In this document: piece by piece, positions 200-23,083 of the stretch
Position numbering within the stretch: position 1 is the first letter of the stretch
How the letters are laid out: every line of letters starts with the position of its first letter
Assembly: GCF_020622345.1 (NCBI RefSeq)
Contig: NZ_JACNMO010000002.1
Location: 248,001 to 312,000, forward strand
From: Roseobacter weihaiensis
GTDB lineage: Bacteria; Pseudomonadota; Alphaproteobacteria; Rhodobacterales; Rhodobacteraceae
DNA length: 64,000 nucleotides
Direction: 5' to 3'
The notes under the pieces: model-generated
Databases searched by the model: none
The model's input: only the letters and a program-made list of their open reading frames with translations
Told to the model about the DNA's origin: nothing
Made by a program: the position numbers and the translations under genes

Positions 200-1804
200 T
201 CAGCGGGGCACATGCGCGGCATTCCAAAAGTCTTCCGTAGGCAAAAGCGGTGGCTCCTGGCGTTGGTAAACCCGCCAAAGCCTGGTCTGTCGCACCGCTT
301 TGAAATGTTTGCCGATGTAGGGGCCGTAGAGCTCTTCCATAAGGTCGGTCGTCGACTCGGCAATGGGGCGTTTGGGGATCATGATCACATCCACGCCCCC
401 GAGCAGCGCGTCGGCTGAAAAGTGGAAATCTGCGTCAAAATTGCGTCCATCATGCATCCATGCCGTCCCCCCCTGCGGCGGGTTGAGCCCCACAAGCGAC
501 GTCATGGGGCTGACGAAATCCATGACCAGAACCTTGGTCGGCGGTGGGCTGAGCGATTCCAGTACCGCGACCCCTTTTTCCAGGGATTCAGCATAGTTGG
601 CGTAGAATTTGAACTGCCCGTCATCGAGGGTGTTGACCACACGGATGTCCTTGCCGTTTGGTGTGTTCAAGGCGATGCCCGCACCTGTTGCGACCATTGT
701 GGCATGCAGCCCCAAGGCGGCCGCCGAGGACAACCCAACCGGGAGCATCAGGACGATCACCAACAAGGCCGCACCGCGTGTCATCATGTCGACGCTATAT
801 GTCAAACCTTGTCGCCATTGGCGCGACAGGTGTTCGGCCGCAACGACCCCGCCTGCAAGCAAGGTCACGATGCCCCGGACCTGAAAATTCTGCATCAGCA
901 ACGCATATCCCGCGCCCAGACAAAACCCGTAGAACAGAAAATCCGTAAAGCGGCCCCTTTGCCAAAGAGCCAGCCCTGCCAGACAGGCGAACACGATATA
1001 TTCGCCGGATGTCTCAAGCAGTGACACGACATAGTCGCGCAAGGGCAGCACGGCGCTGACGTTCGACGCAACGGCCAGATCCGCGATGTGCATCCGCGTG
1101 CCGCCCCAGAACATCTCGATAACGGCCCCTGACAGGCCCGTGAGCAGGATCGCAGCCGCCGCCCAACGTCGTTGCACGGGGTGCAACAGCATGAGGAATA
1201 GAAAGACCAATGCAACAACGCCGTAGGTTGCCTTTGTATACAGCATCATCAGGGTTAGCGCCGTCGCGGCCAGGGTGTCGCAGGCAACCTGATGACGTAG
1301 GGGCCGCTCCGGACGCAAATGCATGATCAAGAGGAGCCCGATCAGGGCCCAGCCGATCCGGTTGTAGAACATCGCAAAGGAGATGTTCATCACCATTTCC
1401 CCGGTGTTCACCGGCGTGATCATCAGCAAAAGCAGGAAGATGGCCCAGGGCACGGCGATCAGCGGTCTGACCCGCGTTCCAAGCACATGGATCATGATGG
1501 GTGCCGTCACGATCATCAGGGCGGCCAGTCCGACGGGCATCGCCAGCCCCAGATTGCCGGTGACCCAATACCCAAAGCCCGGAAGATAGAACGACAAGGG
1601 CCCCAGGGCGGTGTGAAAGTCGCGGTTCGGCACTTGGCCCTCGACCACCCGGTAGCCGCCATCGAGGAAGATTAGAAGGTCGTTGAAGTATCGGGACGTG
1701 GCTGTCGCCCCTGGCAGGATGAGGAGCGCGCTGCAGATTGCAATGGTCACGACAACGGTCAGGACAACGGGTGAGCGCATGTTGAAAGGGCGTGGCATAG
1801 GCAA
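200..1804 (-). CDS. GT-C-like polytopic membrane protein, candidate glycosyltransferase
   Basis: A 534-residue protein with about ten hydrophobic segments and a soluble C-terminal part from about residue 390. The first segment is followed by an acidic loop (YFNDLLIFLDGGYRVVEGQ, then NRDFHTALGPL). That layout, with Asp residues just after TM1, is typical of GT-C glycosyltransferases that use polyprenyl-phosphate sugars and act on the periplasmic side. It is the last gene of a minus-strand operon encoding the decaprenyl-phosphoryl-arabinose enzymes and starts 4 bp after the dprE2-like stop. I infer that it may transfer the arabinofuranosyl residue. It has no clear named-family match by eye, so function rests on topology and neighbours. 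Confidence 0.6.
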   Translation of the reverse strand: MPMPRPFNMRSPVVLTVVVTIAICSALLILPGATATSRYFNDLLIFLDGGYRVVEGQVPNRDFHTALGPLSFYLPGFGYWVTGNLGLAMPVGLAALMIVTAPIMIHVLGTRVRPLIAVPWAIFLLLLMITPVNTGEMVMNISFAMFYNRIGWALIGLLLIMHLRPERPLRHQVACDTLAATALTLMMLYTKATYGVVALVFLFLMLLHPVQRRWAAAAILLTGLSGAVIEMFWGGTRMHIADLAVASNVSAVLPLRDYVVSLLETSGEYIVFACLAGLALWQRGRFTDFLFYGFCLGAGYALLMQNFQVRGIVTLLAGGVVAAEHLSRQWRQGLTYSVDMMTRGAALLVIVLMLPVGLSSAAALGLHATMVATGAGIALNTPNGKDIRVVNTLDDGQFKFYANYAESLEKGVAVLESLSPPPTKVLVMDFVSPMTSLVGLNPPQGGTAWMHDGRNFDADFHFSADALLGGVDVIMIPKRPIAESTTDLMEELYGPYIGKHFKAVRQTRLWRVYQRQEPPLLPTEDFWNAAHVPR

Positions 1805-1808
1805 GCCT

Positions 1809-2579
1809 TCAGAGTTTCAGACGTTTGAAGATCGGTTCGGGCAAGGCGCGAATGATGCCCATGATCAGCCGCCAGGCGCTTAAGACATAGACGACATTGG
1901 CGTTGCCGGTCTGCAGGCCCAGAATGCGCTGCGCAACGGCCTCGGGGGCGGCTGTCAGCGCGCCGGGCAAATCCATGCCTTCGGTCATTGAGGTGCGCAC
2001 AAAGCCGGGTTTGACGGTCACGACCCGCACGTCTGTTTGCGAAAGCCGATTGCGCAGGCCCGAAAGATAGGCTGAAAATCCGGCCTTGCTTGCGCCATAG
2101 ACGTAGTTCGACGCTCGCCCGCGGTCGCCCGCGACCGAGCTGACGCCGACGATCAGCCCGTCGCCGCGGGCGGCGAGCCGCCCCGCCAGCGCCTCCAGCA
2201 GCAGCGCGGGTCCCTCGAAATTGGTCCTGATGATCGCGGTCGCGTGATCGGGATCGCCCTGCGCGCGCGGTTGGTCCCCCAACATGCCCACGACGCAGAC
2301 AATGCTGTCGGGCAGCGCGCCAAGGCTGTCGATGAAAGCGTCAAAGCTGGCGGTGTCGAGGATGTCGATGGGGTGGACCGAGACGTGATCCGTGCCGTGG
2401 CGGGTTTGGATGTCGTCCGCGTTTCGCCGCGCCCGTTCAACGTCACGGGCGGCGAGTGCGACACCCCATCCCTTGGCCGCGTAGGCATCAGCGACGGCCC
2501 GCCCGATGTCTGACGTACCCCCGATGACCAACAGCCTCTTACCCGTACTGATGGATTTGGGTTTGTGCAGGTTCGTCAT
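1809..2579 (-). CDS. SDR reductase, DprE2-like (decaprenylphosphoryl-2-keto-ribose reductase)
   Basis: A 256-residue short-chain dehydrogenase. The NAD(P)-binding motif GGTSDIG is at about residues 20-26, a catalytic Ser in VSSVAG at about 146, and YGASK (YxxxK) at about 160. In the DprE1/DprE2 pathway this enzyme reduces the 2-keto intermediate to decaprenyl-phosphoryl-D-arabinofuranose. The start ATG overlaps the stop of the upstream DprE1-like gene (ATGA), implying translational coupling. The pairing with a DprE1-like oxidase and a UbiA prenyltransferase supports the DprE2 role; alone it would only be called an SDR. Confidence 0.8.
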   Translation of the reverse strand: MTNLHKPKSISTGKRLLVIGGTSDIGRAVADAYAAKGWGVALAARDVERARRNADDIQTRHGTDHVSVHPIDILDTASFDAFIDSLGALPDSIVCVVGMLGDQPRAQGDPDHATAIIRTNFEGPALLLEALAGRLAARGDGLIVGVSSVAGDRGRASNYVYGASKAGFSAYLSGLRNRLSQTDVRVVTVKPGFVRTSMTEGMDLPGALTAAPEAVAQRILGLQTGNANVVYVLSAWRLIMGIIRALPEPIFKRLKL

Positions 2580-3901
2580 AAAGCAAGCCTTTCGGACAAT
2601 TTCGACGCCATATGGCCGGCAACCCCGATATCCTGTCGGACTTGCCGAAATGCCGCGATGTTCGGATAGCCCGCGCTGAATGTGGCCCGCGATTGGCAGG
2701 CGTCCTTGGCCAGATAGATGCGCCCGCCCGCCTGTGCGACAAGCACGTCGATTTCAGCCAGCAGCCCCAACCCTTTTTCGCTGACCGGCAGGTCGAGTGC
2801 CAGCGTCAGACCATCGCGCGGAAAGGACATCAGCCCGGCCCCGGGCCCCAGACATTTCAGCACCGCAAGGAAAGAGCCCTCGCCGCGCGACGACAGAAGG
2901 TCAAGGATTGTGCTCATCACCTGCTCGGCGTCTTCATTTGGGATCACGCATTGATGCTGCACAAAGCCGCGCGGGCCATAGATACGGTTCCAGTTCGAGA
3001 TACTGTCGAGGGGGAAAAAGTAGCTGTCCCATGGAACAAGTGTGGTCTGGCCGGATCTCTTGGCGCCGCGTCGATAGTAAAGAGCGTTGAATGCAGAAAC
3101 TGACGCGGTGTTCAGCACCCACCCCGGCAGTTCTACCGGGACGCCCAGACGTCCGGTGCGGGCGGGTGGAAATTGTTTGTACCCCCCCGGAAGATCGTCC
3201 TCTGTGGCATGCTCGCCCGCGAGGATCAGCGAACGCCCAAGGGATGCCCCCCGCGCCAGCACGTCGATCCAGGCGACGGTGTAGGTTGCCTTTTCAGTCT
3301 GGCGCAGCAGTGCGATCGCCTCTGACAGGTTCTTGGCGGCATGGGTGGTTTGGCGGATCCATCCGCTGGACACGGGCCTGAGCCGGAAACCGGCCGCAAG
3401 GATCGTACCGGTCAGCCCCATACCGCCGATGGTGGCTTGGAAAAGGGCTGCGTTTTCGTGCGGCGCGCAGCATACGACCTGACCATCTGGCAGGGCCAGT
3501 TTCAGCCACGCGACGTGATGTCCGAAGGTGCCGTCATTGTGTTGGTTCTTGCCGTGGATATCCGATGCGATCATGCCGCCAACGGTAACGAACCGCGTTC
3601 CCGGAACGACAACTGGAAAGTAACCGCGCGGCAAAAAGCAGGCGATGATGTCGTCCAGTGACACCCCGGCCTCGGTCGCAAGCAGACCGGTTTCGGGGTT
3701 GAAAGACTGCATGCGGTTCAGCCCTGTCATGGACAGCGTGGTTTCACGCCCGATGGCGGCGTCACCGTAGGAGCGGCCCAGACCGCGCGCGATCAGACCC
3801 GCGCTGCCCGTCGTTTCGGTGGCTGCCTCATCAGGGGTCGCCGCGGTTGTCTGCGCCCCGATCTGGCGCGGATATCGGCCCCAGCCGCTGAGGTCCTTCA
3901 C
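2576..3901 (-). CDS. FAD-linked oxidase, DprE1-like (decaprenylphosphoryl-ribose 2-oxidase)
   Basis: A 441-residue oxidase of the vanillyl-alcohol-oxidase fold. The N-terminal FAD-binding signature ARGLGRSYGDAA is at about residues 38-49, with a second FAD segment VPGTRFVTVGGMIASDIHG at about 98-116. The C-terminal segment YLAKDACQS corresponds to the YTAKDS segment of mycobacterial DprE1, which carries a catalytically important Lys. The expected reaction oxidises the 2-hydroxyl of decaprenyl-phosphoryl-ribose, the first half of the epimerisation to D-arabinose. Length matches mycobacterial DprE1 (about 460). It overlaps the genes on both sides by 4 bp. Confidence 0.85.
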   Translation of the reverse strand: MKDLSGWGRYPRQIGAQTTAATPDEAATETTGSAGLIARGLGRSYGDAAIGRETTLSMTGLNRMQSFNPETGLLATEAGVSLDDIIACFLPRGYFPVVVPGTRFVTVGGMIASDIHGKNQHNDGTFGHHVAWLKLALPDGQVVCCAPHENAALFQATIGGMGLTGTILAAGFRLRPVSSGWIRQTTHAAKNLSEAIALLRQTEKATYTVAWIDVLARGASLGRSLILAGEHATEDDLPGGYKQFPPARTGRLGVPVELPGWVLNTASVSAFNALYYRRGAKRSGQTTLVPWDSYFFPLDSISNWNRIYGPRGFVQHQCVIPNEDAEQVMSTILDLLSSRGEGSFLAVLKCLGPGAGLMSFPRDGLTLALDLPVSEKGLGLLAEIDVLVAQAGGRIYLAKDACQSRATFSAGYPNIAAFRQVRQDIGVAGHMASKLSERLAL

Positions 3902-4338
3902 ACTGTTGCTTCCCGAAACACGTGGCGCCGGTCGAGCCAGAACTTTATGATATAACCGATGCTCAGCCCGAGAACAGCACCTGTGTATTTCGCAAAATCA
4001 GTCTGCCAGATTGCGTAAAAGCCCAACTCGAACGCCCAAAAGATCAGTGTTGTCAGGACGCTGAAAAGGCCCGACAGGGTGACGCGATGCGCTTCTGCCT
4101 TGGGGGTGGTATAGGCCTCGCGGAAGGTCCAGGTCTTGTCGATCAGGTATTTGACGGCAAAGCCGACGATGGTGCCTACAATGATCGAGACCATCAGCGG
4201 GGCCGCAGATGCCCCAACCACCGTGATCTGCTGCGCCACCAGGTTTGCCACGACCGACACGACCGCCGAAATCGCGTAGCGCAGGGAAGGGTGGCTGTCC
4301 GAGACCAACCGAACCACAGATCGCGATAATGCTACCAT
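3898..4338 (-). CDS. GtrA-family small membrane protein
   Basis: A 146-residue protein with four predicted membrane helices and the GtrA pattern: SLRYAISAVVSVVANLVAQQ near the N-terminus, then FAVKYLIDKTWTF in the middle and IIKFWLDRRHVF at the end. GtrA proteins are linked to flipping or organising polyprenyl-phosphate sugars at the cytoplasmic membrane, and members sit beside DprE1/DprE2 in actinobacteria. I use the ATG at 4338, which overlaps the last codons of the upstream prenyltransferase (ATGGTAG). The frame is open further up to 4485, but that part only shadows the prenyltransferase gene. Confidence 0.8.
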   Translation of the reverse strand: MVALSRSVVRLVSDSHPSLRYAISAVVSVVANLVAQQITVVGASAAPLMVSIIVGTIVGFAVKYLIDKTWTFREAYTTPKAEAHRVTLSGLFSVLTTLIFWAFELGFYAIWQTDFAKYTGAVLGLSIGYIIKFWLDRRHVFREATV

Positions 4339-5885
4339 GACGCGGCCACGAAGACGGCCAGCATGGCCAGACCGCTCAATCGGCTCATCGGGTCTTTGAG
4401 GGCAAAGACCACCGGGTCGTCCTGCATCTTGCGGCGTTGGGCAAGGATCAGCGCGCGCCCGATCCAATAGGTCAGGATCGGACAAGCCAGCAGCAGCAAG
4501 TCGGGATGCGTGTAAAGCGAGCTCACCGCATAGCCAGAGACATAGAGCGCCAGCACCGTGACCGCATTGAAACCTGCCGCTGCGGAGAGGGCGGCCAACA
4601 TGGTCAGATCGGAATTCTCATAATCCCGATTGGCTGGCGAGGGCATTTTAGAATCGATACGTGCCGCCAGTTCCACAAACCGCTTCATCAAGGCCAGAGA
4701 GACGAAGAGAGACAGCGAAAAAACCACAAGCCAGGACGAAAGGCCGATCCCGAGCGCGACCGCACCACCGATCATCCGGATGGTATAGAGGCCGGACAGG
4801 GTCAGCACGTCGACAAGCAGAATCTGCTTGAGGTGTAGCGTGTAAAGCGTTGTTAATACGAAGTATACCGCGAGCACCCCTGCAAACGGAAGGGAGATGG
4901 ACAGCGACACGATGGTCGCACATCCCAGCAATATGGGCACTGCAATGATCGCATGGATCAGTGGAATGTCTCCTTTCGCGAGGGGCCGGTCTTTCTTGGT
5001 GCGATGTATCCGGTCTTCGGCCAGATCCACCAGATCGTTCAGCATGTAGCAGGCGGAGGCCGCAAAACAGAACGCCAACGCCGCGAGGGTCGCGGTGAAC
5101 AGACTGGCAAAGTCAAACATGTGAGCTGCGAACATTGGCAAGAATACCAGTGCGTTCTTTGCGTATTGATGCACCCGCAGTTGCTTGCCCCAGCTCTTCA
5201 GCGACGCGCGTTTGTGGTCCAGAAACAACGCGCCCGGTGCCATCTCGCGCAGTTTCGCTGACACGGATCCCGAAGTGCGGATCGCAATCGGCTGTCGCGC
5301 GACTTTCCACACCGGCAGGTCTGCGGCAGCGTTTCCGATATAGTCGAAATCACCTGCGCCGAACTGATCGACCAGGCACTTTGCCTTGTTTTGACCAGAT
5401 AGATTGACAGATGATGTGGTGGCAAAAAATCCATCAAAAACAACGAGATGTGCAGCAATCGCGCTGACAAAGCTTTCATGCGATCCAGAGGCCAGATAGA
5501 CCCGACGCCCGGCATCCCGGGCCCGGTGCAGGATGCTGAGAACCGTTTCGTCATAGGGCAGTGTGGCGGGTGCGCACTCCGCATCATCGCACAGAAAGTG
5601 TTTCAGCGCGGCTTTTCCGTTTTTGAGTGCGCCAAGCATGCCAAAGGCAGCAGCAGGGTCATTCCCCAGACGGCGAAACGCCGTTTCGAGCAGAAGATCG
5701 GATCGCAGGAGTGTGCCATCGAGATCGACGACAAGTGGCACGTTCACATCCATATCCAGATCGTCCGCGGTGGCATATTTTGCGGTCGCGACAGATTTGC
5801 CCGGGAACCTGCCAATCCCAAGATTTGCATCCATGACACCAGCGGAGGCGCCCTGAAGCGGACCGGTGTTTGCTTTGAAAGTCAT
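4332..5885 (-). CDS. HAD-UbiA fusion: decaprenyl-phosphate phosphoribosyltransferase-like
   Basis: A 517-residue fusion. Residues about 45-235 are a HAD hydrolase: DLDGT at about 54-58, and the late acidic motif YIGNAAADLPVW. Residues about 240-517 are a UbiA-type prenyltransferase with the motif NDLVDLAEDRIHRTKKDRP and about eight membrane helices. In mycobacteria the UbiA enzyme (Rv3806c) transfers phosphoribose to decaprenyl phosphate and a separate phosphatase removes the 5'-phosphate. A HAD domain fused to UbiA could do both steps; that is inference. It is the first gene of the operon, with AAGGAAGG upstream of the ATG. Confidence 0.8.
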   Translation of the reverse strand: MTFKANTGPLQGASAGVMDANLGIGRFPGKSVATAKYATADDLDMDVNVPLVVDLDGTLLRSDLLLETAFRRLGNDPAAAFGMLGALKNGKAALKHFLCDDAECAPATLPYDETVLSILHRARDAGRRVYLASGSHESFVSAIAAHLVVFDGFFATTSSVNLSGQNKAKCLVDQFGAGDFDYIGNAAADLPVWKVARQPIAIRTSGSVSAKLREMAPGALFLDHKRASLKSWGKQLRVHQYAKNALVFLPMFAAHMFDFASLFTATLAALAFCFAASACYMLNDLVDLAEDRIHRTKKDRPLAKGDIPLIHAIIAVPILLGCATIVSLSISLPFAGVLAVYFVLTTLYTLHLKQILLVDVLTLSGLYTIRMIGGAVALGIGLSSWLVVFSLSLFVSLALMKRFVELAARIDSKMPSPANRDYENSDLTMLAALSAAAGFNAVTVLALYVSGYAVSSLYTHPDLLLLACPILTYWIGRALILAQRRKMQDDPVVFALKDPMSRLSGLAMLAVFVAASW

Positions 5886-6404
5886 ATCCAGGCCCTTCCT
5901 TAGTTACGGGTTTTCATCGCGAGCCCGGCATAGGGCATAGGCGCAACGAGGGATCCATCCAGACCCGAAATCAGACCCCTCCAACGGCTACGAACCGGGC
6001 TTCTGACTGGCGCGTCGGTGTGACGCGCGCGCATCGTGGTCACCTTGTTTTCAGCGACAATCAGAATCCCTTGAGGGGCGCAGACATTAGATTGACGAGA
6101 CAATCAACAGGATACGAGCGCGTTTCGTGCGCAGCGTCCGGTCTGGCAAAAAAGCGCTAGATTCGACGACTTACCGGCGAAAAATAGTATATTTCCCGGG
6201 TCTGGTTCATCATTTTCTGGATGTTGGCGTCAAATTGGGTTCGCGTGCTTACGATCATGTGATTCAGGAGTATGTAGTGTGCGAGGTGTTTTGGCGGGAT
6301 GGAAGCGGGGCCATCGACTTGGGTCGGTCTTTGGTCATTGCTTGAGGTCTGTCACGGTGGTGATCTCTTTGTCGCTGTGACGCATGAAGGATAAGGGAGC
6401 AACA
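5886..6404. promoter_or_regulatory. Divergent intergenic region between the two arms of the glycan locus
   Basis: 519 bp between the UbiA-led minus operon and the plus-strand AsmA-like gene. It must contain promoters for both directions. I see no clear -35/-10 pair, no strong dyad and no convincing gene; a 72-codon frame at 6127-6345 is not protein-like. The part around 6170-6200 (gcgaaaaatagtatatttcc) is AT-rich and may hold the plus-strand promoter. Confidence 0.45.
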
Positions 6405-8249
6405 ATGCAACTTCGCATGGGGTTGAGACGCTTGGCGTCCGGGCTGCGTTGGTGGCTCGTCTGGATCGTTGCCATTGGTGCGGGCGCGTATCTTCTTGGT
6501 CCGGCTCTGGTGCCGGAAAGGCTCGTCCAAGCACAGATCAGCAACCACGTCGGGCACTGGACGGGTGGGGCGTACAGGCTGCACGCCGATGCCGAGATCG
6601 CCATTGAACCGGGGTTCCGTGTTATTGTTTCTGATCCGGCGTTTGTATCCGTCTCCGATGCCGATGCGGCGCCTGTCTTGACCGCTGACACTATTGTTGC
6701 GCCGCTGAGGATTCTTCCGCTGCTGTTTGGCCGGGTCGAAATTGCCGAGCTGATGCTTTTGCGTCCCGACATCGATTTGCAAAGGCCAGCGGAGCATTTT
6801 GCGGCCTCTGTGCCGCCAGGCGGTCGAGGGGGCGCCTCGACCGGGCGGACACGTCAGTTCAGCGAAGTGATACTTGTTGATGGCACCCTGCGTTTCGGCG
6901 GCATGATGGGCCGTCATAAAGTATCCGGCCTCAATTTGCGCTTGGGGGCCGATGAGGTGACGGATGCAGTTGCGATAAAAGGGGGGGTGTTCCTGGGCGC
7001 GCGTCACCTGCGTGTTGACTTGCAATTGGATGACTTGCGCGCATTGATTTCAGACAGCGGCACGCAAGCCAGTCTGAAACTCCGGGTGGGTCCGAGACAT
7101 CACGGCGAAGAGGGCGAGGTCGCGGCGTCTGATCCGGGGATTCCCTACGAGATCACCGAGAAACTGCGGCAAGCGGCAGAGACGTTGGGTCTGTCGGCAG
7201 TTGGTCTCGGTTCGATGGTCGTCGAGGGAATGTTTTCGGTGACCCCGCAGGTGGTTGCTATCTCCGATGCGACGTTTTCGCTGGACGGGCTCGAAGCTGA
7301 AGGCCATCTGCGCGCGGAAACTGCAGACCGGCCGGTGATGGCGCAGCTGTTGGGGTTGCCCGCCACGGTCAGCGCCTTGGTCGCGGGTGTCACGGAGATG
7401 GATAACAACCGCTGGGTCGACGTCCCTGTGACACTGGCCGGGTTTGATGGTCTTGATTTGGACTTCGCATTGACAGGAGACACCTTGCCGATTGGGGATC
7501 TGACGCTTGATCGGGCGGCACTCTCACTGGTTGTTCGTGATGGCACCACATCGTTGGATCTGTCCGGAAACAGGGAGGGGCTTGGCCATGTGCAGGCGGG
7601 GCTCTCGCTTGAACAGGGGACCGGCGAACCCGTCAGGTTAACGGCTGCTGGGCGTGTTGATGCCATGTCAGTCGGCCAGATCACCCAGTTTCTGGCCGCG
7701 ATAGGACCGCCACCGCCAATCGGTACGCCGCAGTTGCCGGAGGGGATGATGAACGGCACATTTAATGTAAATGCCCGCGGCAATACGCTTGGCCAGTTGG
7801 TGGACAGTTTGAACGGATCGGTCAGGGCACAGCTGAAAGATGGCAGTCTGACGGGGACGGATCTGGTTGCAACGCTGGAAACGCTGGTCAGAGGTCGCGA
7901 ATTCATGACCGAAGAGCACGGGCCGCTTATCCCGGCCGCAGGGCGCACGCCGTTCGATCAATTGGACGCGCGTGTCGATCTGGTGTCGGGGACCGCCAGC
8001 GTTTCGGAGGTCCACATTGCGGGCGAGCGGTTCGGGATCAACATGCTGGGCGAGGTTCAATTGACGGAAGGTACCATGAATGTCGGCGGCAATGCGGTGT
8101 TGTTGGCGTTATCTGAGACAGGGTCGCGGTCTGAAAATACCCTTGTCGACCTGCCATTTGGTGTGGGGGGGACAGTGTTTGCGCCGGTGGTTGCCGCCGG
8201 TGTGCCGACCGTGACGGCAGCACGGGTCGATGCCTATGATGAAGACTGA
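6405..8249 (+). CDS. AsmA-family protein
   Basis: A 614-residue protein with one N-terminal membrane helix (WWLVWIVAIGAGAYLLGPAL) and a long periplasmic region rich in beta strands. The C-terminal part (GTFNVNARGNTLGQLVDSL followed by SVRAQLKDGSLTGTDL) matches the AsmA C-terminal domain. AsmA-like proteins are bridge-like factors acting in lipid or envelope glycoconjugate transport. I use the ATG at 6405, preceded by AAGGGAGC, rather than the ATG at 6384. It is followed after 57 bp by a GT-C membrane protein and then DUF4185, which suggests a role in export of the surface glycan made here. Confidence 0.75.
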   Translation: MQLRMGLRRLASGLRWWLVWIVAIGAGAYLLGPALVPERLVQAQISNHVGHWTGGAYRLHADAEIAIEPGFRVIVSDPAFVSVSDADAAPVLTADTIVAPLRILPLLFGRVEIAELMLLRPDIDLQRPAEHFAASVPPGGRGGASTGRTRQFSEVILVDGTLRFGGMMGRHKVSGLNLRLGADEVTDAVAIKGGVFLGARHLRVDLQLDDLRALISDSGTQASLKLRVGPRHHGEEGEVAASDPGIPYEITEKLRQAAETLGLSAVGLGSMVVEGMFSVTPQVVAISDATFSLDGLEAEGHLRAETADRPVMAQLLGLPATVSALVAGVTEMDNNRWVDVPVTLAGFDGLDLDFALTGDTLPIGDLTLDRAALSLVVRDGTTSLDLSGNREGLGHVQAGLSLEQGTGEPVRLTAAGRVDAMSVGQITQFLAAIGPPPPIGTPQLPEGMMNGTFNVNARGNTLGQLVDSLNGSVRAQLKDGSLTGTDLVATLETLVRGREFMTEEHGPLIPAAGRTPFDQLDARVDLVSGTASVSEVHIAGERFGINMLGEVQLTEGTMNVGGNAVLLALSETGSRSENTLVDLPFGVGGTVFAPVVAAGVPTVTAARVDAYDED

Positions 8250-8306
8250 CAGGGCAATCACAACACCATGCGCGCAGCCTGATGTCGGGAAGGCAAGTTA
8301 ACTCCT

Positions 8307-9857
8307 ATGTCGCTTAATGACCCTGCGCTGATCGGGATGCATTGGGGCCGTCGTTTGATCGCGGCCTGCGTGCTGCTTTTCTGGCTGGTGTTTTATGGCT
8401 ACTGCCTTTTCCCCGGACTAGGAGGGATGCTCAATGCCGGGGATTCTGCCAAGTTCCAGACATTGGGCCACACATCCATTCTGGTTCACGGGCCGGGCTA
8501 CCCCTTTGTCCTGATGCTCGGGGCCCTTGTGCGGGCGCTGGCCCTGCCTTTTGAGCCATGGTGGGTGATGACCTTTCTGATGGCCGCAGTTCCGGGGGCG
8601 ATCGCCAATACCATGGCATTCCTGATCGTTGGTCGGTTGACAGGCAGCGGTGTCTTCGGTCTCGCCGCTGCCCTGCTTCTGGGCAGCGCGGGGCTGATGG
8701 CGGTGCAGTCAACCGAGGCGGAGGTCTATCCGCTTGCGCTGGCGTTCATCCTGTCAGTTGGTTTCTTGCTCCTTCGATTTATCGATACCAAGGGGCCTGG
8801 ATACTTCATCGCTGCCTGCGGTGTCTATGCGCTGTCGTTTGGGAATCACCTGATGATGATCATGCTGGTGCCCGTTTTCTTGTGGGTCACGGCTGCGCAT
8901 TTCCGTATTTTGCTGCGCCCGAGGATCATCATAACCGTCCTGTTGCTGGTCATGGCAGGGGCCAGTCAGTACCTTTATCTGGCTTGGGTCACACACGCCC
9001 CCAGCACCGCTTACTCCGAATACATGCCGCTGCCGCCAACAACAGGCGAACTGATCCAGTATATCGCGGGAACCTATTTTGGCGACCTTTACGGGTCTGG
9101 CCTTGCGTCGACCCAGACCACGGAGATCCTGCTGAACACCCTGCAGTTTGCACATCCCCGGCTGTCAGCCCCGGTCATCGCCGCGGGCTTTCTGGCTTTT
9201 GTGGCTGGACACCGCCGCCGCGATGCCAGTTGGCGGGGGCTTGCGTTGATACTGGGGATCGGGTTGGCCTTTGTCCCTTTCACGCTTTGGTATGGTGCTT
9301 ATGACATCCGGGCCTTTCATCTGCCGGTTCTCGGGCCGCTGCTGATCGGTTCGATTGCAGCTCTTGGCTGGTGGCTGGGGCGCTGGCCCGGGGCCCGTCT
9401 TTGGGTTGGCATGGCATTTGTTGCGTATGGCGTCGTGCGGACAGGTGAAATGGCAGGGTATCTGTCCACACGCGAGCCTATTTTCCCAAATCTGGTGGAG
9501 ACACTGGAGGTTATCGTTCCGCAGTCGCCCGTGGAGGATCCGGTGGTGTCGATGACCTATGGTTTGCGCATGGCGACTCTCTATCATGAATTGCTGGGCG
9601 AGGTGCCAAAACCGGCCAGCTATCGCGTGACATGGCGTACACAGGCCGAGATTGCCAGGCGCGATCCGGTGGGTGGTCTGGTCGTACCCACCGACGGTGA
9701 ACAGTTTCTACAATGGATCGAGCACCGGCACCCCGATCTGGTTTGCCGGACGATGCCGGTTGAACAACCCAGCGGAACACCTTGGCCTGCCTACGCTTTT
9801 CTGTGCGAAGACCGGGCCGAGCCACCCGCGCCGGATCAGCCTGAGGGAGGTGGCTGA
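8307..9857 (+). CDS. DUF2723-type GT-C membrane protein
   Basis: A 516-residue protein with about eleven hydrophobic segments. After TM1 comes NAGDSAKFQTLGHTSILVHG followed by PGYPFVLMLGALV. That is the DUF2723 signature, in which an acidic residue and the motif HxPGYP lie in the first external loop of a GT-C-like fold. Members resemble protein O-mannosyltransferases and may use polyprenyl-phosphate sugars, but few are characterised. The C-terminal 110 residues are soluble and probably periplasmic. The donor could be the arabinofuranosyl lipid made by the divergent operon; that is inference from position. Confidence 0.7.
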   Translation: MSLNDPALIGMHWGRRLIAACVLLFWLVFYGYCLFPGLGGMLNAGDSAKFQTLGHTSILVHGPGYPFVLMLGALVRALALPFEPWWVMTFLMAAVPGAIANTMAFLIVGRLTGSGVFGLAAALLLGSAGLMAVQSTEAEVYPLALAFILSVGFLLLRFIDTKGPGYFIAACGVYALSFGNHLMMIMLVPVFLWVTAAHFRILLRPRIIITVLLLVMAGASQYLYLAWVTHAPSTAYSEYMPLPPTTGELIQYIAGTYFGDLYGSGLASTQTTEILLNTLQFAHPRLSAPVIAAGFLAFVAGHRRRDASWRGLALILGIGLAFVPFTLWYGAYDIRAFHLPVLGPLLIGSIAALGWWLGRWPGARLWVGMAFVAYGVVRTGEMAGYLSTREPIFPNLVETLEVIVPQSPVEDPVVSMTYGLRMATLYHELLGEVPKPASYRVTWRTQAEIARRDPVGGLVVPTDGEQFLQWIEHRHPDLVCRTMPVEQPSGTPWPAYAFLCEDRAEPPAPDQPEGGG

Positions 9858-10034
9858 TTCGAGGCAATGATTAAATGTCCATCACAAATTCAAAAAATGC
9901 AAAAATAGGCGATAAATCGCTTTATTATTGCTTCAACATCGGTCAATTATTGCCCGTGCCGGTGTCGGGCTTTGCCTTTCAACCCTCGGACCGGAGCACC
10001 CGTTGGAACTCCGTCATGGGAGAACAGGCCCCCG

Positions 10035-11219
10035 ATGTTGAAGAAGTTTACGATTTTTCTGGTTCTTTTGATGTCACAAGCGACATGCGGCAATCAGGTG
10101 TATATCGAACCGGGCCACGCCGCCGGGCAAATCCCGTTCGGGGGCATGATGTTCGCATCGCCCACGGATTTGGTGGCGCCCTTGGATGAGGATGCCGAGG
10201 CACCCGTCTCCGGCCTCCAGGTCGGCGCGGCAGAGGTAGTGACCCAGTTGACCGGGGCTGCGTCGGCGAATGCGACAGCCGACAGGTGGAACGTGCATGG
10301 CACCGATCTGGGGCATATGTTCCTGCACAACGATGACCTTTACATGATGTTCGGTGATACCTACGGGCCCGATGGCGGGGACTGGCGCAGCAATGTGCTC
10401 GCCCGGATCGCCGATCCTGATCCGCGAAACGGTTTGTCCTTTGCGGCGATGGCCGAGACAGCCGACGGTTCCGCCAGCGAATTGGTGCGCGCCTCGCGTG
10501 TGCCGGGCGTTGAATGGACGGTGATCCCGACAAATGCGATTTCCGCCTCGGGCAAGATGATCATGCACTACATGTCCGTGCGCATGTGGGGGCCGGATGA
10601 CCGCTGGTATGTGCGCCGCTCCGGCCTGGCCTGGTCAAAGGACAATGGCCAGACCTGGACCAGATCGCAGACGGCGGTGTGGCCTGCCGGAACCGGGTTC
10701 GAGCAGGTGGCCTATGTGGAGCGGGGCGGTATGATCTATGTCTTTGGCATTCCACAGGGGCGGTTTGGCGGCACAAAGCTGGGCCGTGTCACGCCAGAGG
10801 CGATGCTCGACCCTGCGTCCTATGAATACTGGGATGGTGCGCGCTGGGTGCCGAACATCCGTGCGGCCGTTGAGGTGGTGCCCCCGTCAGTTGGCGAGTT
10901 GTCTGTTGCCTGGAGCGAGGCGAACCAGCGCTGGTTGATGATGTATTATGAACCGAACCTGCGCGCCGTTGTTCTACGCCATGCGCTTGCGCTGACCGGA
11001 CCATGGAGCGAGATGCAGATCGTAGCCGACAGCCGCGATTACCCGGGCCTTTATGCGCCCTACATCGTACCGGGTGCCGATATCGATGGTGAATTGTATT
11101 TTACGATGTCGCGGTGGAAACCTCTTTATAATGTGTTCCTGATGAAGGCGCGGCTTGATCCGGAAACGCTCGCGACGCAGGTGAGTACGATACCCGCCCC
11201 GTCAACGCCGACAGAATGA
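10035..11219 (+). CDS. Exported DUF4185 protein, possible endo-D-arabinanase
   Basis: A 394-residue protein with a cleavable-looking signal peptide (MLKKFTIFLVLLMSQATC). The DUF4185 core begins near residue 75 with GTDLGHMFLHNDDLYMMFGD followed by TYG, the conserved first blade of a five-bladed propeller, and continues through WSKDNGQTW and a C-terminal YAPYIVPG. DUF4185 includes enzymes shown in mycobacteria and phages to cleave D-arabinan (CAZy GH183, as I recall). Beside DprE1/DprE2-like genes this substrate is attractive. I use the ATG at 10035 because it gives the signal peptide; the frame is open upstream to 9972. The Cys before the mature part lacks a proper lipobox. Confidence 0.75.
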   Translation: MLKKFTIFLVLLMSQATCGNQVYIEPGHAAGQIPFGGMMFASPTDLVAPLDEDAEAPVSGLQVGAAEVVTQLTGAASANATADRWNVHGTDLGHMFLHNDDLYMMFGDTYGPDGGDWRSNVLARIADPDPRNGLSFAAMAETADGSASELVRASRVPGVEWTVIPTNAISASGKMIMHYMSVRMWGPDDRWYVRRSGLAWSKDNGQTWTRSQTAVWPAGTGFEQVAYVERGGMIYVFGIPQGRFGGTKLGRVTPEAMLDPASYEYWDGARWVPNIRAAVEVVPPSVGELSVAWSEANQRWLMMYYEPNLRAVVLRHALALTGPWSEMQIVADSRDYPGLYAPYIVPGADIDGELYFTMSRWKPLYNVFLMKARLDPETLATQVSTIPAPSTPTE

Positions 11220-11743
11220 TGGCATAACGGCGTTTGATGAGGTGAGGACCCAAGCTCGATCTGCGGGATATATGCCAATCCGACAATGCGCAGGGATCGG
11301 GCGTCCATTCGGCAGCGTTTTGCGCATTCCTTTGGCGGTTTCAGAATGCGACATATCGCCCGTTCCAGGGGCCGTTCCTGTTCATAGGTACTCCCGGAAG
11401 CACCGGGCTGAAACGCCTTGATCCCAGGCGGAGATTTGTATTATTTCACCTTATTTACAGAGTGTTGCGGCCCATTCACTGGCGCAGAGAAAAGCGCTTT
11501 GTCATGGTTTCGCTGGGGGCCGCACACAGCAGATGTAACCGGCAGACCTGACGGCCCGACAGCGGTCTGAACGGCTGATACCGTTTCTGGCGTTTTACCT
11601 GCTGGCAGGCTTTTGCCACTTTCCGCTGGGCAGCTTGGCCCCACCCGAGGAAGCTCCTAAATTTGGCTGACCAGAGGGTTGCCCCGTACCAATTTCCTCC
11701 CACGACTGAGGTCCCCTCGTTTATCAACCTCAAGGAGCAGGAC
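11220..11743. other. Intergenic region before the sulfotransferase operon
   Basis: 524 bp without a supported gene. It is more AT-rich around 11430-11460. It presumably carries the promoter for the operon starting at 11744, but I cannot assign -35/-10 boxes. Frames at 11441-11799 on the minus strand look like chance. Confidence 0.4.
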
Positions 11744-11998
11744 ATGAGACCAATAGAACAATCAGTGCAACGAAACGCCGTGGCGCTCGTCCTTGGCATC
11801 GGGTTCGCGGTTTTGCCTGTGGCAGCGCACGCCTATGTTGGCCCGGGTGCCGGCCTGACGGCCATTGGCACGATGGTCGCCCTTGTCGCGGCACTCATTC
11901 TCGCGCTGGTGGGCTTTGTCTGGTACCCGATCAAGCGATTGATGCGCGCGAACAAAGCGCCAGTCGAGACAACCGACAATACCGAGCCCCCCAAATGA
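11744..11998 (+). CDS. Small YVGPGAG-motif membrane protein
   Basis: An 84-residue protein with a signal-like helix ending in AHA, followed at once by YVGPGAGLTAIGTM and a second helix ending in WYPIKRLMRA. Small proteins with a YVGPGAG motif next to a helix and a basic cytoplasmic tail recur beside sulfo- and phosphotransferase genes in proteobacteria; I know of no assigned function. The start has a good ribosome binding site (AAGGAGCAGGAC). The stop overlaps the start of the sulfotransferase gene (ATGA), so the two are probably coupled and may interact. Confidence 0.65.
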   Translation: MRPIEQSVQRNAVALVLGIGFAVLPVAAHAYVGPGAGLTAIGTMVALVAALILALVGFVWYPIKRLMRANKAPVETTDNTEPPK

Positions 11999-13485
11999 GC
12001 ATTGCGGCCCTGCTGCTGGGCCTGCTTGCTTTCATATTGGTGCTGCGCATCTTCAACGCCGCCCAACTTGCCGGTGAGGTCATTCAAACAACACAAGGTG
12101 CCATCAGCGTGATGGCCAACACGGATGTCTCTGACGCGGAGAAGGAGACGCAGGTGCGCCGCGCCTCTCTCAAGCTGATGGGACGCTTCTTCTGGATTGC
12201 GTCAATTGGTGTGGCGGCTTTTGCCGCCTCAGCAGTGCTGGTCTGGGGCGGTGCCGCTCTGGGCTTCTATGCGCTTGATCGTGCGATTGCGATCGCACTT
12301 GGATGGCCCTTCATCCTTGGCTCCTGTGTCGCGGCAGTCGCTCTCTGGATCGGCCTTGACCGTCTGAAACGCCCCTCGCTGTCGAAGACGGCAGAGCCCG
12401 CAGAGGTCGCTTACAACAAACTCGATATTGCGTTGCACGATTTCGCCTTTGCCTCGCCTCAGCGCCAGCGCATGCTTGGAAATCTTGAAAGTACCATTTT
12501 CAGAGGCCGCATCGATATGGACCGGGTAAAGCGCCCTGTCTTCGTGACCTCGCTGCCGCGTGCCGGAACCACGATCATGCTGGAAGTGCTTGCAGGCTTG
12601 CCGCACTTCGCCTCTGCGACCTACAGGCATATGCCTTTTACGCTGTCACCGCTGATGTGGGGCGGGCTTTCCAGCGCGTTCCGCAAGCCAAGCGAAAAGG
12701 CGGAGCGGGCGCACGGCGATGGCATCGAGGTGGGTTTTGACAGCCCCGAGGCCTTTGAGGAAATGCTGTGGACCGCGTTCTGGCCGGAGCATTACGGCAA
12801 GCGCCGCATTGAACCGTGGCGCGCCGAACAGAGAAACCCGGAGTTCGAGACATTCTTTCGCACCCACATGGCCAAGATCGTGGCTACCAAGCCGGGTGCC
12901 GCACGGTATCTGTCCAAGAACAACGCCAATATCGCCCGCCTCGGCCTCATCGAGCGGCTGTTCCCGGATGCCTGCGTCATTATGCCAATCCGGAACCCGC
13001 GCGCCCAGGTCCGCTCCCTCATGCGTCAGCATCAGCGTTTCAGCGGGCTCCATGCCCGAGAGCCATTTGCCCGACGGTATATGGAAGGGATCGGCCATCT
13101 GGAGTTCGGAGAAGCCCTGCGACCCATCGGCTTTGACGGGATGTCGGCTGAGCCGGAGACGGCGCACCGCGCGGGGTTTTGGCTGACCTATTGGATCGCC
13201 GCCTACGAACATGTTCTGGCCACGGCCGGCCCCACCGTCGTCTTTGTCGATCATGATGCCCTGTGCGCTGACCCGTCCGGCGTTCTGCCCGGACTCGCGG
13301 AGGCGATGGGCCTTGATGACCCGACAGGGCTGATGGCGACGCGGGGTATGTTCCGTGCGCCGGGCCCGGTGCCGGATCTTTCCGATGTATCGCCTGCGCT
13401 GCTGCGGCGCGCCGATGATCTTCATGCGGAACTGCGCCGTCTTGCCATAGGCTCTGCGGTTTCAAATCAAGGGTATGCAAAGTGA
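11995..13485 (+). CDS. Sulfotransferase-family protein with N-terminal membrane region
   Basis: A 496-residue protein. Residues 1-130 hold two or three membrane helices (one at the start, and a pair at about 64-120). The rest is a sulfotransferase fold: the PAPS 5'-phosphosulfate loop is in RPVFVTSLPRAGTT at about 180, and a likely 3'-phosphate site lies in PIRNPRAQVRS at about 333. The family moves sulfate from PAPS to hydroxyl or amine groups on carbohydrates or small molecules. The membrane anchor suggests a lipid-linked or membrane-presented acceptor. It is translationally coupled to genes on both sides. Confidence 0.8.
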   Translation: MSIAALLLGLLAFILVLRIFNAAQLAGEVIQTTQGAISVMANTDVSDAEKETQVRRASLKLMGRFFWIASIGVAAFAASAVLVWGGAALGFYALDRAIAIALGWPFILGSCVAAVALWIGLDRLKRPSLSKTAEPAEVAYNKLDIALHDFAFASPQRQRMLGNLESTIFRGRIDMDRVKRPVFVTSLPRAGTTIMLEVLAGLPHFASATYRHMPFTLSPLMWGGLSSAFRKPSEKAERAHGDGIEVGFDSPEAFEEMLWTAFWPEHYGKRRIEPWRAEQRNPEFETFFRTHMAKIVATKPGAARYLSKNNANIARLGLIERLFPDACVIMPIRNPRAQVRSLMRQHQRFSGLHAREPFARRYMEGIGHLEFGEALRPIGFDGMSAEPETAHRAGFWLTYWIAAYEHVLATAGPTVVFVDHDALCADPSGVLPGLAEAMGLDDPTGLMATRGMFRAPGPVPDLSDVSPALLRRADDLHAELRRLAIGSAVSNQGYAK

Positions 13486-14774
13486 AAAAATCGCTGTCGG
13501 ACCGCCTTTTCTTTGGCGGCTTTTTGATTTCCCTCGTCTTCATTGCCGTAATTTACGGCATCGTGTCCTCCTGGTGGGGATGGTTCCCCGCCAAACAGGT
13601 GGGGCTGGCGCATCGCACCCTGCTTGATGTCTCGACCAACTGGAGAAACGATCTGGGTCTTGAACCAACGCGCCATCTGGTGCCGCCCAACGAAACCGGC
13701 GAGGCATCGCCCGACCGGGGGTATTGGCTTGCCCCGGGCGCCGTACAGCAACCGGGGTACATCCTGATCGCCGGTCTCAGTGACGATCAGGAAACCTCTG
13801 TGCATGTTGTGCGGATGTTTGATGCCACCGGGGAAGAAGTCCATCGCTGGCCGATCAAATACGCTAACTTCGACACGGAGATCCGTCCACAGAACGTCAT
13901 GTTGCACGGGATGGAGGTGTTCGAGGACGGCTCTGTCGTTGCGACCTTTGATACAGGCCAGGCCATTGCACGGGTGGATGCCTGCGGTGAGACGATGTGG
14001 AGCGTGGTGGGCGGCTTTCACCATTCGATCACCCGCAGCGGTGATGGCGGGCTTTGGACCTGGGAAGGCGACGATATGGTGCGGCTCGACGAGGACACCG
14101 GCGAAAAGACCTTTACGCTCAGCATCGTCCGGGACGTCGTTCCGGCAAACGACGGTGAGCAGCGGGCGATCTTTGACATCCGCACGATAGAGCCCGACGG
14201 CCCGAATGACGGGCTTGCCTATCTGTACGACCCGTTTCATTCCAACGACGTGGAAATGCTGCGCCCGGAAATGGCCGATGCCTTTCCCATGTTCGAGGCC
14301 GGGGATCTGTTGTTCAGCCTCCGGGAATTGAACCTTGTGGCTGTCGTCGATCCAGAAACGGGTATCCTGCGATGGTGGCAACATGGACCCTGGCTGAAAC
14401 AACACGATCCGGACTTTCACGCCGACGGTACGATTACGGTCTTCGACAATGCAACCGGTACGGACAGATCCCTGATCCGGCGCGTTGACCCCAAAGACGG
14501 CAGCATGTCGGTCGAGTTCGCCGGAAGCGAAGAGGTGCCTTTCTACACCTGGCGCCGGGGCAAGCATCAGTATCTGCCCAACGGCAATATTCTTCTGACC
14601 AACGCCGAACATGGCAGGGTTCTCGAAGTCGACCCAGATGGTCGCGTCGTGTGGACACGTGACATGGTCTGGGATTCCACCAACAACCTCATCATCACCG
14701 AGGCGCGTCACATCCCGGAGAATTTTTTTGAAAACGGATTGCCGACCTGTTCTGTTATGGCGGACGTGCAGTAA
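13482..14774 (+). CDS. Arylsulfotransferase (ASST)-like membrane-anchored protein
   Basis: A 430-residue protein with one N-terminal helix (FFGGFLISLVFIAVIYGIV) and a beta-propeller domain. ASST-type segments are GGFHHSI at about 176, DPFHSND at about 247 and QHDPDFHADGTITVFDN at about 306; conserved His residues in these blades form the active site in characterised ASSTs. Such enzymes transfer sulfate between phenolic compounds without PAPS, in the periplasm. The GTG start overlaps the stop of the sulfotransferase gene (GTGA). Pairing a PAPS-type enzyme with an ASST-like propeller suggests a relay or a shared sulfated product, which is inference. Confidence 0.75.
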   Translation: MKKSLSDRLFFGGFLISLVFIAVIYGIVSSWWGWFPAKQVGLAHRTLLDVSTNWRNDLGLEPTRHLVPPNETGEASPDRGYWLAPGAVQQPGYILIAGLSDDQETSVHVVRMFDATGEEVHRWPIKYANFDTEIRPQNVMLHGMEVFEDGSVVATFDTGQAIARVDACGETMWSVVGGFHHSITRSGDGGLWTWEGDDMVRLDEDTGEKTFTLSIVRDVVPANDGEQRAIFDIRTIEPDGPNDGLAYLYDPFHSNDVEMLRPEMADAFPMFEAGDLLFSLRELNLVAVVDPETGILRWWQHGPWLKQHDPDFHADGTITVFDNATGTDRSLIRRVDPKDGSMSVEFAGSEEVPFYTWRRGKHQYLPNGNILLTNAEHGRVLEVDPDGRVVWTRDMVWDSTNNLIITEARHIPENFFENGLPTCSVMADVQ

Positions 14775-15722: not shown

Positions 15723-16160
15723 TCAGCCAGCGACCTTTCGCTTGTCAGCCGCTTGGCCCGTGTCTGTGTCTTCGTCGAGCTTACCCAAACGTTCGAGTAT
15801 GGGGCAATCTGGGCGATGATCTCCTGCACAGGCTTCCACGAGATGGCTGAGGGTTTCGCGCATGCGGATCAGATCGCTGATTTTCCCTTCGATGATCTTC
15901 AGATTGTCCCGAGCGATTTGTCTGACATCAGCGCTGGCACGCTCCTTGTCTTCCCAGAGCGCCAGCAGAGAGCGGCAGTCCTCGATGGTGAATCCCAAAG
16001 CCCGCGCCCGTCCCAAAAACGTCAGTTTGTGGACGTCACTGTCGCGGAAGGCTCGGTAGCCATTGCTGTCACGCAACGGCAGGATCAATTTGATATCTTC
16101 GTAGTACCGGATTGTCTTGGGCGGCAGGCCCGAACGGGTTGATGCGTCTCCGATATTCAT
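15723..16160 (-). CDS. cueR: Cu(I)-responsive MerR-family regulator CueR
   Basis: A 145-residue MerR-family activator. An N-terminal winged helix (MNIGDASTRSGLPPKTIRYY) is followed by the dimerisation helix. The metal loop CAGDHRPDC near residues 111-119 matches the two-Cys C-x7-C loop of CueR, which binds monovalent copper. It lies 36 bp downstream of copA on the same strand with a good ribosome binding site (AAAGGAAACTGAG), so it is probably cotranscribed and autoregulated through the copA promoter. MerR-type promoters at 18731, 18818, 25387 and 27781 are its likely targets. Confidence 0.88.
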   Translation of the reverse strand: MNIGDASTRSGLPPKTIRYYEDIKLILPLRDSNGYRAFRDSDVHKLTFLGRARALGFTIEDCRSLLALWEDKERASADVRQIARDNLKIIEGKISDLIRMRETLSHLVEACAGDHRPDCPILERLGKLDEDTDTGQAADKRKVAG

Positions 16161-16196
16161 CTCAGTTTCCTTTCTCGAACTCTTGCGATTAGCGGA

Positions 16197-18698: not shown

Positions 18699-18730
18699 TT
18701 TCCCGCTCCCGGCTGGCCATATCTGATAGT

Positions 18731-18761
18731 GACATGGGGCTTCCAGTAGCTGGAGGGTCAA
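18731..18761 (-). promoter_or_regulatory. CueR-type promoter of copA
   Basis: On the minus strand a -35 box TTGACC (18761-18756) is followed by the dyad CCTCCAGCTACTGGAAG. A weak -10 (CATGTC, 18736-18731) sits at a 19-bp spacer, the long spacing that MerR-family activators require. It lies 33 bp upstream of the copA start. Confidence 0.7.
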
Positions 18762-18817
18762 GGAGTCATCGAAAAATAGTTTTCGATTGCGTACGGGACG
18801 GGTTGGAATTTTCCTAC

Positions 18818-18848
18818 TTGACCCTCCCGTTGGACAGAGCGGTATGGC
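18818..18848 (+). promoter_or_regulatory. CueR-type promoter of the copZ-like gene
   Basis: On the plus strand TTGACC (18818-18823) and TATGGC (18843-18848) are separated by 19 bp. The spacer holds the start of a CueR-like dyad (CCTCCC...) whose right half is degenerate. It is divergent from the copA promoter and 28 bp upstream of the copZ-like start. Confidence 0.6.
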
Positions 18849-18876
18849 GACAAGATCACCAAGGAAAGGCCCCCAA

Positions 18877-19077
18877 ATGATCAGCCTCAATATCCCCAAT
18901 ATGTCTTGTGGCCATTGCAAAACAGCCGTTGAGAAAGCGATTTCCTCTGTTGATCCCTCCGCAAGCATCGCCCTGGATCTCGACATGCGCCATGTCGTTG
19001 TTACGACGGACGTGGATGCGGCACGGGTGATGGATGCCTTGAAGAACGCAGGGTATCCTGCGACTGAGACCGCGTGA
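18877..19077 (+). CDS. copZ: CopZ-like heavy-metal chaperone
   Basis: A 66-residue single heavy-metal-associated domain. The metal site is in [15 protein letters not shown] (CxxC at residues 11-14), followed by the usual beta-alpha-beta pattern and a C-terminal AGYPA. Such chaperones deliver Cu(I) to CopA domains in the cytoplasm. The start at 18877 follows AAGGAAAGG; the frame is open to 18787, but that would include the promoter. It is divergent from copA, with MerR-type promoters for both in the gap. Confidence 0.85.
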
Positions 19078-19098
19078 TGCAGTATCCCGGAACAAAGA

Positions 19099-20283: not shown

Positions 20284-20294
20284 GCGCCGCGCAC

Positions 20295-20810: not shown

Positions 20811-20930
20811 GATCGGCTCCTTCTGGTGGTGCTGCGAGAATACCTGATCGATCACCACTTGCTGTGAGGGCAATGTGAGCTTGTGTGGATAGGGGGCGGC
20901 GACAAGTCTCGCTGCCCCCAGCAGTACATT

Positions 20931-21656: not shown

Positions 21657-21711
21657 GGTTTGGTCCTGTATGGTTGGTTTTTGGAGGGTGGTCTTAAATT
21701 CAAAGGACATT

Positions 21712-23070: not shown

Positions 23071-23083
23071 GATTTCAGTCCTT

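Follow-up and report, generated by a model that had tools for sequence, protein, structure and literature searches.

In mycobacteria and corynebacteria, the set of proteins devoted to decaprenyl-phosphoryl-D-arabinofuranose (DPA) comprises Rv3806c, Rv3807c, DprE1, DprE2 and the Aft/Emb transferases, and AraH belongs to the family GH183. Osmoregulated periplasmic glucans (OPGs) carry phosphoglycerol, phosphoethanolamine and succinyl substituents, as well as acetyl groups in some species. Glucose has been described as their sole constitutive sugar (PMC3818809). In Citrobacter youngae, the two domains of ORF15 make polyprenyl-P-ribose from phosphoribosyl pyrophosphate (PRPP), with farnesyl-P as acceptor (Kelly et al. 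2024, PMC11127046), and DUF4185 has been established as GH183, an endo-D-arabinanase family (PMC10115798). Here, we describe a locus of Roseobacter weihaiensis (RefSeq assembly GCF_020622345.1) in which relatives of these components stand together. The stretch analyzed, hereafter the window, covers 64,000 nucleotides of contig NZ_JACNMO010000002.1 (391 kb), from base 248001 onward, in a genome of 5.35 Mb that is 99.99% complete. Within it, a predicted donor operon for D-arabinofuranose (D-Araf), consisting of a HAD-UbiA fusion, GtrA, a DprE1-like oxidase (E1) and a DprE2-like reductase (E2), is followed by the gene of a GT-C protein, GTC1, and lies divergent from a trio encoding an AsmA-like protein, a TMEM260-like GT-C protein and a GH183 protein, while the OPG genes opgG and opgH adjoin GTC1. 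We refer to loci in which GTC1 is conserved at 55% or more as cassette loci (18 loci). These are not 18 independent cases, since three strains of Tateyamaria omphalii and several other Tateyamaria are among them.

A sequence-only reading of this DNA had likened the donor enzymes to the mycobacterial DPA set, and the PDB matches of E1, E2 and UbiA bear this out, with the checked catalytic positions kept. The HAD-UbiA fusion scored 571 bits against PRK08238 (cut-off 351), and the best PDB match of its UbiA domain was the mycobacterial decaprenyl-phosphate phosphoribosyltransferase 8j8j (74.9 bits). The protein exhibits both hallmarks of a PRP-PPPRS fusion, that is, an N-terminal HAD domain with DxDGT (here VVDLDGT) and a UbiA domain with NDxxDxxxD (here LNDLVDLAED), motifs whose residues have been assigned roles (PMC11127046). 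Across seven HAD-UbiA proteins, the UbiA motif was found in all seven and the HAD pattern, as typed, in five. An alignment of E1 with DprE1, read by eye, places H and K opposite H132 and K418 and an A opposite C387, three positions that we take to be important in DprE1. Homology to the DprE1 structures extends across residues 4-440, and E2 adjoins E1 both in the window and in the 15/15 cassette loci that retain E1; this combination of full-length homology, H132/K418 equivalents and an adjacent DprE2-like gene assigns E1 to the DprE1-like polyprenyl-P-ribose 2-oxidases in the wider sense. For E2, DprE2 was the best among 429 PDB sequences, the Y...K pair is kept and the score against PRK07102 (335.9 bits) exceeds the cut-off of 267. 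The DprE1/DprE2 identity proposed from the sequence alone holds at the level of homology, but both proteins remain under the NCBIfam equivalog cut-offs (E1, 406.1 bits against 500 for NF053785; E2, 187 against 250 for NF053786), and for this reason we use the names DprE1-like and DprE2-like and make no equivalog assignment. In an E1 tree of 29 rows, a branch with support 66/99 set the seven cassette E1s apart from the other rows. Of the 26 inner branches, 13 were well supported, but no order of the deep forks, including the relation to actinobacterial DprE1, was recovered with confidence; the actinobacterial branch was long and that of the single outgroup very long. Together, the homologies and the kept motifs make it very probable that the locus makes a D-Araf donor, the predicted product being polyprenyl-P-D-Araf.

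The family of GTC1 has no clear Pfam match (84 members scanned), and the GTC1 copy of a Tateyamaria plasmid bears the annotation 'hypothetical protein'. Its members, which range from roseobacters as far as Rhizobium and Microvirga, adjoin donor genes in many alphaproteobacteria and follow E2 in most loci, the slot which, on plasmids of Rhodococcus and Tsukamurella, is occupied after DprE2 by annotated arabinofuranosyltransferase genes. A confident predicted structure exhibited a GT-C-like fold with AftA as best match, ArnT tied with it and Pmt4 among the top matches, and the acidic residues after the first transmembrane helix are likewise consistent with the GT-C superfamily. The first AlphaFold model, built from six sequences, had been poor (pLDDT 48) and was discarded. 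At the sequence level, the GTC1 profile gave a single chance match to PDB sequences (E 0.82), no homology to GT85 (AftA) was detected (hhalign gave a probability of 15.5 with two proteins annotated as arabinofuranosyltransferases, which we take for AftA), and the comparison with the TMEM260-like protein reached an hhalign probability of 0.3. Matches to GTC1 were present in 9/394 genomes of the family, four of which we counted as orthologs (>850 bits), the other five scoring <160 bits. Considering the fold and the gene order, GTC1 is likely a transferase. In one Microvirga, one Devosia and one Paracoccus, a GT87 gene was also observed next to the GTC genes in convergent orientation (L101 11561-12739, L129 11428-12573 and L118 11108-12280, respectively), encoding a candidate further transferase.

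With regard to the acceptor, which the sequence-only reading had left open, the gene neighborhoods point to periplasmic glucans. On the window contig, GTC1 stands beside MdoG (opgG, 595 bits) and MdoH (opgH, 749 bits, cut-off 328), and the two GH186 catalytic Asp residues, whose roles have been described (PMC11842490), are kept, as expected of an OPG locus, in columns that were invariant among six MdoG proteins. The adjacency of MdoG was observed in 13/18 cassette loci (14/19 with the window's own contig), against 0/25 other E1 loci, a non-random set that includes three from other families, and 0/46 more distant GTC loci (Rhizobiales, Paracoccus and others); three weakly matching loci (L146-L148) had been dropped from the 65 loci before counting. 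The absences of MdoG, and likewise those of the sulfotransferase and ASST-like genes treated below, make these counts lower bounds, because the loci are unequal in length and some are cut at contig ends. Scanning the flanks beyond MdoG (open reading frames, ORFs, of at least 120 aa within 7 kb, at 40% identity and E 1e-15, omitting L091, where the contig ends, and L094), we found genes in common in 2/78 pairs and none at threshold in the other 76; besides these pairs, L086 and L099, both without MdoG, have one short match in common. Since these flanks are so rarely alike, MdoG and the cassette seem to travel together, and old synteny alone is disfavored as the explanation of the GTC1-MdoG neighborhood. 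A cassette-type OpgD (at least 78%) was detected in 3/394 family genomes, each with a GTC1 ortholog, the next closest proteins reaching 61-62%; it adjoins GTC1 in two of these genomes and lies on a different contig in that of the window. The best PDB match of the OpgD-type enzyme was 8x18, the cyclising OpgD of Xanthomonas, for which two catalytic Asp residues have been described (PMC11842490), and both are kept in the OpgD-type enzyme and in the cassette OpgG. Elsewhere in the window genome, contig C57 carries a second opgG-opgH pair and C36 an OpgD-type gene, which is its third MdoG. No MdoG other than the cassette opgG was found in Octadecabacter dasysiphoniae.

The same neighborhoods bear on the alternative that D-Araf is attached, in the manner of Citrobacter, to side chains of lipopolysaccharide (LPS), capsule or exopolysaccharide, with MdoG as a passenger. 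Three-component systems do modify O antigens (PMC11127046), and a donor set lies near sugar transferase and glycosyltransferase genes on a Ruegeria plasmid, another near gmhA and glycosyltransferase genes in Azospirillum, while on the Tateyamaria plasmid genes for an aminotransferase, an ABC transporter and GT61 come directly past the ASST gene. A passenger, however, accords poorly with the absence of MdoG from the 25 and 46 comparison loci and with the dissimilarity of the flanks beyond it, and on these neighborhoods we consider this destination less likely. Some cases nevertheless weigh against OPGs themselves: the cassette genome G191 has no MdoG at all, which also favors the LPS or capsule alternative, no MdoG was present in the loci of the Roseivivax cassettes or in L094, the distant GTC loci are without it throughout, and in genome G347 the stretches seen hold the GH183 trio but neither GTC1 nor MdoG. 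These cases could mean that the two GT-C proteins serve different acceptors. On the MdoG/OpgD neighborhoods, we place OPGs as the acceptor of D-Araf slightly short of an even call.

The third component, the GH183 trio, was examined for its catalytic residues and its distribution. The DUF4185 protein scored 303 bits against the Pfam model (cut-off 39.5) and 209.5 bits against 8hhv, and both catalytic Asp residues appear to be kept, including the one replaced by Asn in the 8ic1 chain; the pair was assigned by our own reading from the spacing given in PMC10115798 and the comparison of 8hhv with 8ic1. In all 12 loci checked, the GTDLG...FGDTYG motif of GH183 is kept as well. The window protein is predicted to be endo-D-arabinanase-like. 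It is probably exported: by our own reading, lipoprotein-like N-terminal signals occur in several GH183 relatives, the window copy being less clear. GH183 and the TMEM260-like protein, whose family we take to be the former DUF2723, occur together in 17/18 cassette loci and are both absent from the eighteenth, and AsmA was likewise found in 17/18. Among the 394 family genomes, DUF4185 was detected in five, comprising G000, G375 and G191, where it lies within GTC1 cassettes, G347, where its neighbor is a diverged donor set and a different contig has AsmA and TMEM260 at its end, and G345, which has a distant copy with no donor genes, AsmA or TMEM260 in the 20 kb seen. Four of the five genomes have GH183 next to the donor genes for UbiA and GtrA, and the TMEM260-like GT-C was detected in the same four and in no other of the 394. 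In a set of 119 relatives, the window DUF4185 matched three, all with a DprE1-like gene. The trio travels with the donor genes. GH183 outside actinobacteria has been discussed mainly for predators and gut bacteria, with LPS and pilin D-Araf also named as possible substrates (PMC10115798), and one could suppose that the enzyme serves foraging or predation on mycobacterial-type arabinan, apart from any biosynthesis, as the solitary copy of G345 might suggest; its place beside D-Araf donor genes and with the TMEM260-like GT-C in the four other genomes makes this improbable. We lean instead toward a role for GH183 on arabinan that the cell itself makes.

The presence of E1 across cassette genomes addresses the identity of the sugar. 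All 18 cassettes sit in loci or genomes with E1, which is local in 15/18 and elsewhere in 3/18 (L084, genome G459, with a second E1 40% identical; L086, G191; L095, G013), against a background of 23/119 relatives, a figure that includes cassette genomes. In G013 the donor genes lie elsewhere, and in G191 and Octadecabacter separate deletions have left E2 fragments. The two deletions (L084 9624-9988 and L064 10786-11076) removed E1 and most of E2, and in L084 most of GtrA as well, with UbiA and GTC1 remaining; both genomes hold a distant second E1. Such losses, seen in the cassettes L084 and L086, could indicate that in some lineages the sugar is ribofuranose or another pentose and the epimerase dispensable, and the founding GT136 enzyme does take Ribf or Xylf donors (PMC11127046). 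Each such genome nonetheless has another E1 and both retain GH183, which makes another pentose very improbable. A further E1 in all three genomes would be expected of a cassette that depends on D-Araf and whose donor can act in trans. It is just as doubtful that the system arabinosylates proteins, whether pilins or others: the pilin D-Araf of Pseudomonas has been proposed to derive from homologous enzymes (PMC11127046), Pfam names TMEM260 a protein O-mannosyltransferase-like family and the predicted GTC1 structure matches Pmt4, but the recurring neighbor is, indirect as this evidence may be, MdoG.

From the observed gene content, homologies, kept catalytic residues, GT-C-like fold of the GTC1 model, co-occurrence and linkage, we infer a series of reactions, their acceptor and a split of tasks between the two GT-C proteins. 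HAD-UbiA would transfer ribose-5-P from PRPP to polyprenyl phosphate and then remove the 5'-phosphate, E1 and E2 would invert C2 to yield polyprenyl-P-D-Araf, and GtrA would flip the product. GTC1 would then transfer D-Araf to a periplasmic glucan, most probably the OPG that the adjoining OpgG/OpgH synthesizes or the adjoining OpgD-type enzyme processes, and the TMEM260-like GT-C would extend it or add further D-Araf. GH183, present in every locus in which the TMEM260-like GT-C was seen, may trim or rearrange the D-arabinan chains, and the neighboring sulfotransferases could possibly sulfate the glycan. Taken as a whole, we regard this periplasmic D-arabinofuranosylation cassette with OPG as acceptor as an evenly balanced proposition.

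Several observations concern the movement of the cassette. In Tateyamaria omphalii, the entire cassette is found on the 84 kb plasmid pDOK1-4-1 (L178), and GH183, sulfotransferases and a gene for glucan biosynthesis are among its parts. The OpgD-type gene of the window genome (L076 9957-11585, contig C36) shares 90% identity with a congener's cassette OpgD but lies distant from the cassette, which has opgG-opgH as its own neighbor. The window donor genes and GTC1 are 80-86% identical to the Yoonia copy, which, together with this displaced OpgD, suggests replacement by horizontal transfer. A mobile and modular cassette for D-arabinofuranosylation is the best explanation.

Coordinates of the individual features are collected in the table below. 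The eight genes that the sequence-only reading had placed in 200-11219 are all open frames at those positions, with agreeing domain matches, but the unit proved wider than these limits, reaching opgG and opgH on the left and, on the right (11663-14774), the genes of a small membrane protein, a sulfotransferase and an ASST-like protein. The operon with overlaps of 4-7 bp, likewise proposed, was confirmed for the first three junctions (7, 4 and 4 bp, with the GtrA ATG at 4338), and GTC1 starts 4 bp after E2. The arrangement is not due to chance, because the gene order was found again in other genera and on the RefSeq-annotated Tateyamaria omphalii plasmid.

Table. Features of the D-Araf locus, with positions in the window.
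Feature	Position	Strand	Evidence
HAD (PRP)-UbiA fusion, predicted polyprenyl-phosphate phosphoribosyltransferase and 5'-phosphatase	4332..5885	-	Pfam UbiA 5.8e-22, HAD 1.2e-6
GtrA family, putative flippase for lipid-linked pentose	3898..4338 (start approximate)	-	NCBIfam gtrA_1 141 bits, cut-off 50
E1, DprE1-like FAD oxidase	2576..3901	-	DprE1 structures 272 bits
E2, DprE2-like SDR (short-chain dehydrogenase/reductase) reductase	1809..2579	-	top PDB match DprE2 21gq_C, 106.7 bits
GTC1, GT-C protein, candidate D-arabinofuranosyltransferase	200..1804	-	no Pfam match
AsmA-like protein (GH183 trio)	6384..8249	+	Pfam AsmA 4.7e-11
TMEM260-like (DUF2723) GT-C, candidate second transferase or chain extender	8307..9857	+	PF11028 3.3e-11
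DUF4185/GH183, endo-D-arabinanase-like, probably exported	10035..11219 (ORF from 9972; probable start ~10035)	+	PF13810 2.4e-90
Small membrane protein (associated), flanked by the GH183 and sulfotransferase genes	11663..11998	+	all family scores below cut-off
Sulfotransfer_3 protein (associated)	11995..13485	+	PF13469 1e-15
ASST-like (Arylsulfotran_2) protein (associated)	13482..14774	+	PF14269 4.1e-34
opgG, opgH (locus L050)	same contig, left of window, adjoining GTC1	strand of donor operon	MdoG, MdoH profiles

The small gene occupies the same slot, between GH183 and the sulfotransferase, in L027 and on the Tateyamaria plasmid. Sulfotransfer_3 was detected in 11/18 cassette loci, several of them truncated at the locus end, and the ASST-like gene in 4/18, many loci stopping short of its position. 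Further along the window, a copper-handling cluster (15723-24544) comprises a MerR regulator, a P-type ATPase with heavy-metal domains, a multicopper oxidase and an outer membrane efflux protein. A tyrosine integrase adjoins GMP synthase (28349-31468) and the G+C content is lower over 25-30 kb, resembling an integration site; the contig stretch 229000-312000, when searched, contained no second copy of the guaA 3' end of at least 14 bp.

Compared with known systems, the donor half is not new in kind, as earlier publications describe polyprenyl-P-D-Araf formation outside actinobacteria, and the claim that a make-transfer-cut set outside actinobacteria is new in itself was too strong, given the Pseudomonas pilin donors and the three-component systems on record (PMC11127046). 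What is new here is the GTC1 family beside donor genes, the trio travelling with them and the proposed OPG acceptor. More speculatively, and at rather less than even odds, we envisage a roseobacter OPG that is D-arabinosylated, possibly D-arabinan-bearing and sulfated, with an undescribed GT-C family in the slot of the actinobacterial arabinofuranosyltransferase and a resident GH183, as a mobile, periplasmic Gram-negative counterpart of mycobacterial arabinan metabolism. The locus provides a concrete acceptor candidate for a Gram-negative D-Araf system, sets GH183 in a biosynthetic context, highlights an unannotated GT-C family and offers marine bacteria as non-pathogenic models for DprE1/E2-type chemistry. 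If OPGs carry D-Araf, their substituents would include a non-glucose sugar, and no report of this, or of D-Araf on OPGs, was found among the matches listed, mostly from open-access literature.

The closest likeness is to the three-component system of Citrobacter youngae O1/O2, which has the same N-terminal HAD-PRP and UbiA fusion, a flippase, an epimerase step and a GT-C transferase; the present locus differs in its GtrA instead of a MATE flippase and in a two-enzyme DprE1/E2-like epimerase instead of a single SDR (PMC11127046), as well as in having two GT-C proteins and GH183 and MdoG neighbors. The Pseudomonas pilin system (Harvey 2011, as cited in PMC11127046) is likewise a Gram-negative polyprenyl-P-D-Araf route with proposed DprE1/E2-type epimerisation, but in P. 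aeruginosa the phosphatase is separate, whereas it is fused here, and the available text mentions no GH183 or OPG gene link for it (PMC11127046). With the mycobacterial and corynebacterial DPA pathway, the locus has in common related donor enzymes, GH183 and the order GtrA-E1-E2-GT-C, as annotated in Rhodococcus; it departs from that pathway in the fused HAD phosphatase (there a separate Rv3807c), in E1 and E2 scores below the equivalog cut-offs, in a GTC1 without sequence similarity to AftA and in its MdoG neighbors. Finally, if the acceptor is right, the system would resemble known OPG substitution in changing the glucose chains of OPGs and differ from it in adding a glycosyl substituent from a polyprenyl-P donor, and such D-Araf decoration of periplasmic glucans may, if true, constitute a new type of bacterial sugar modification.

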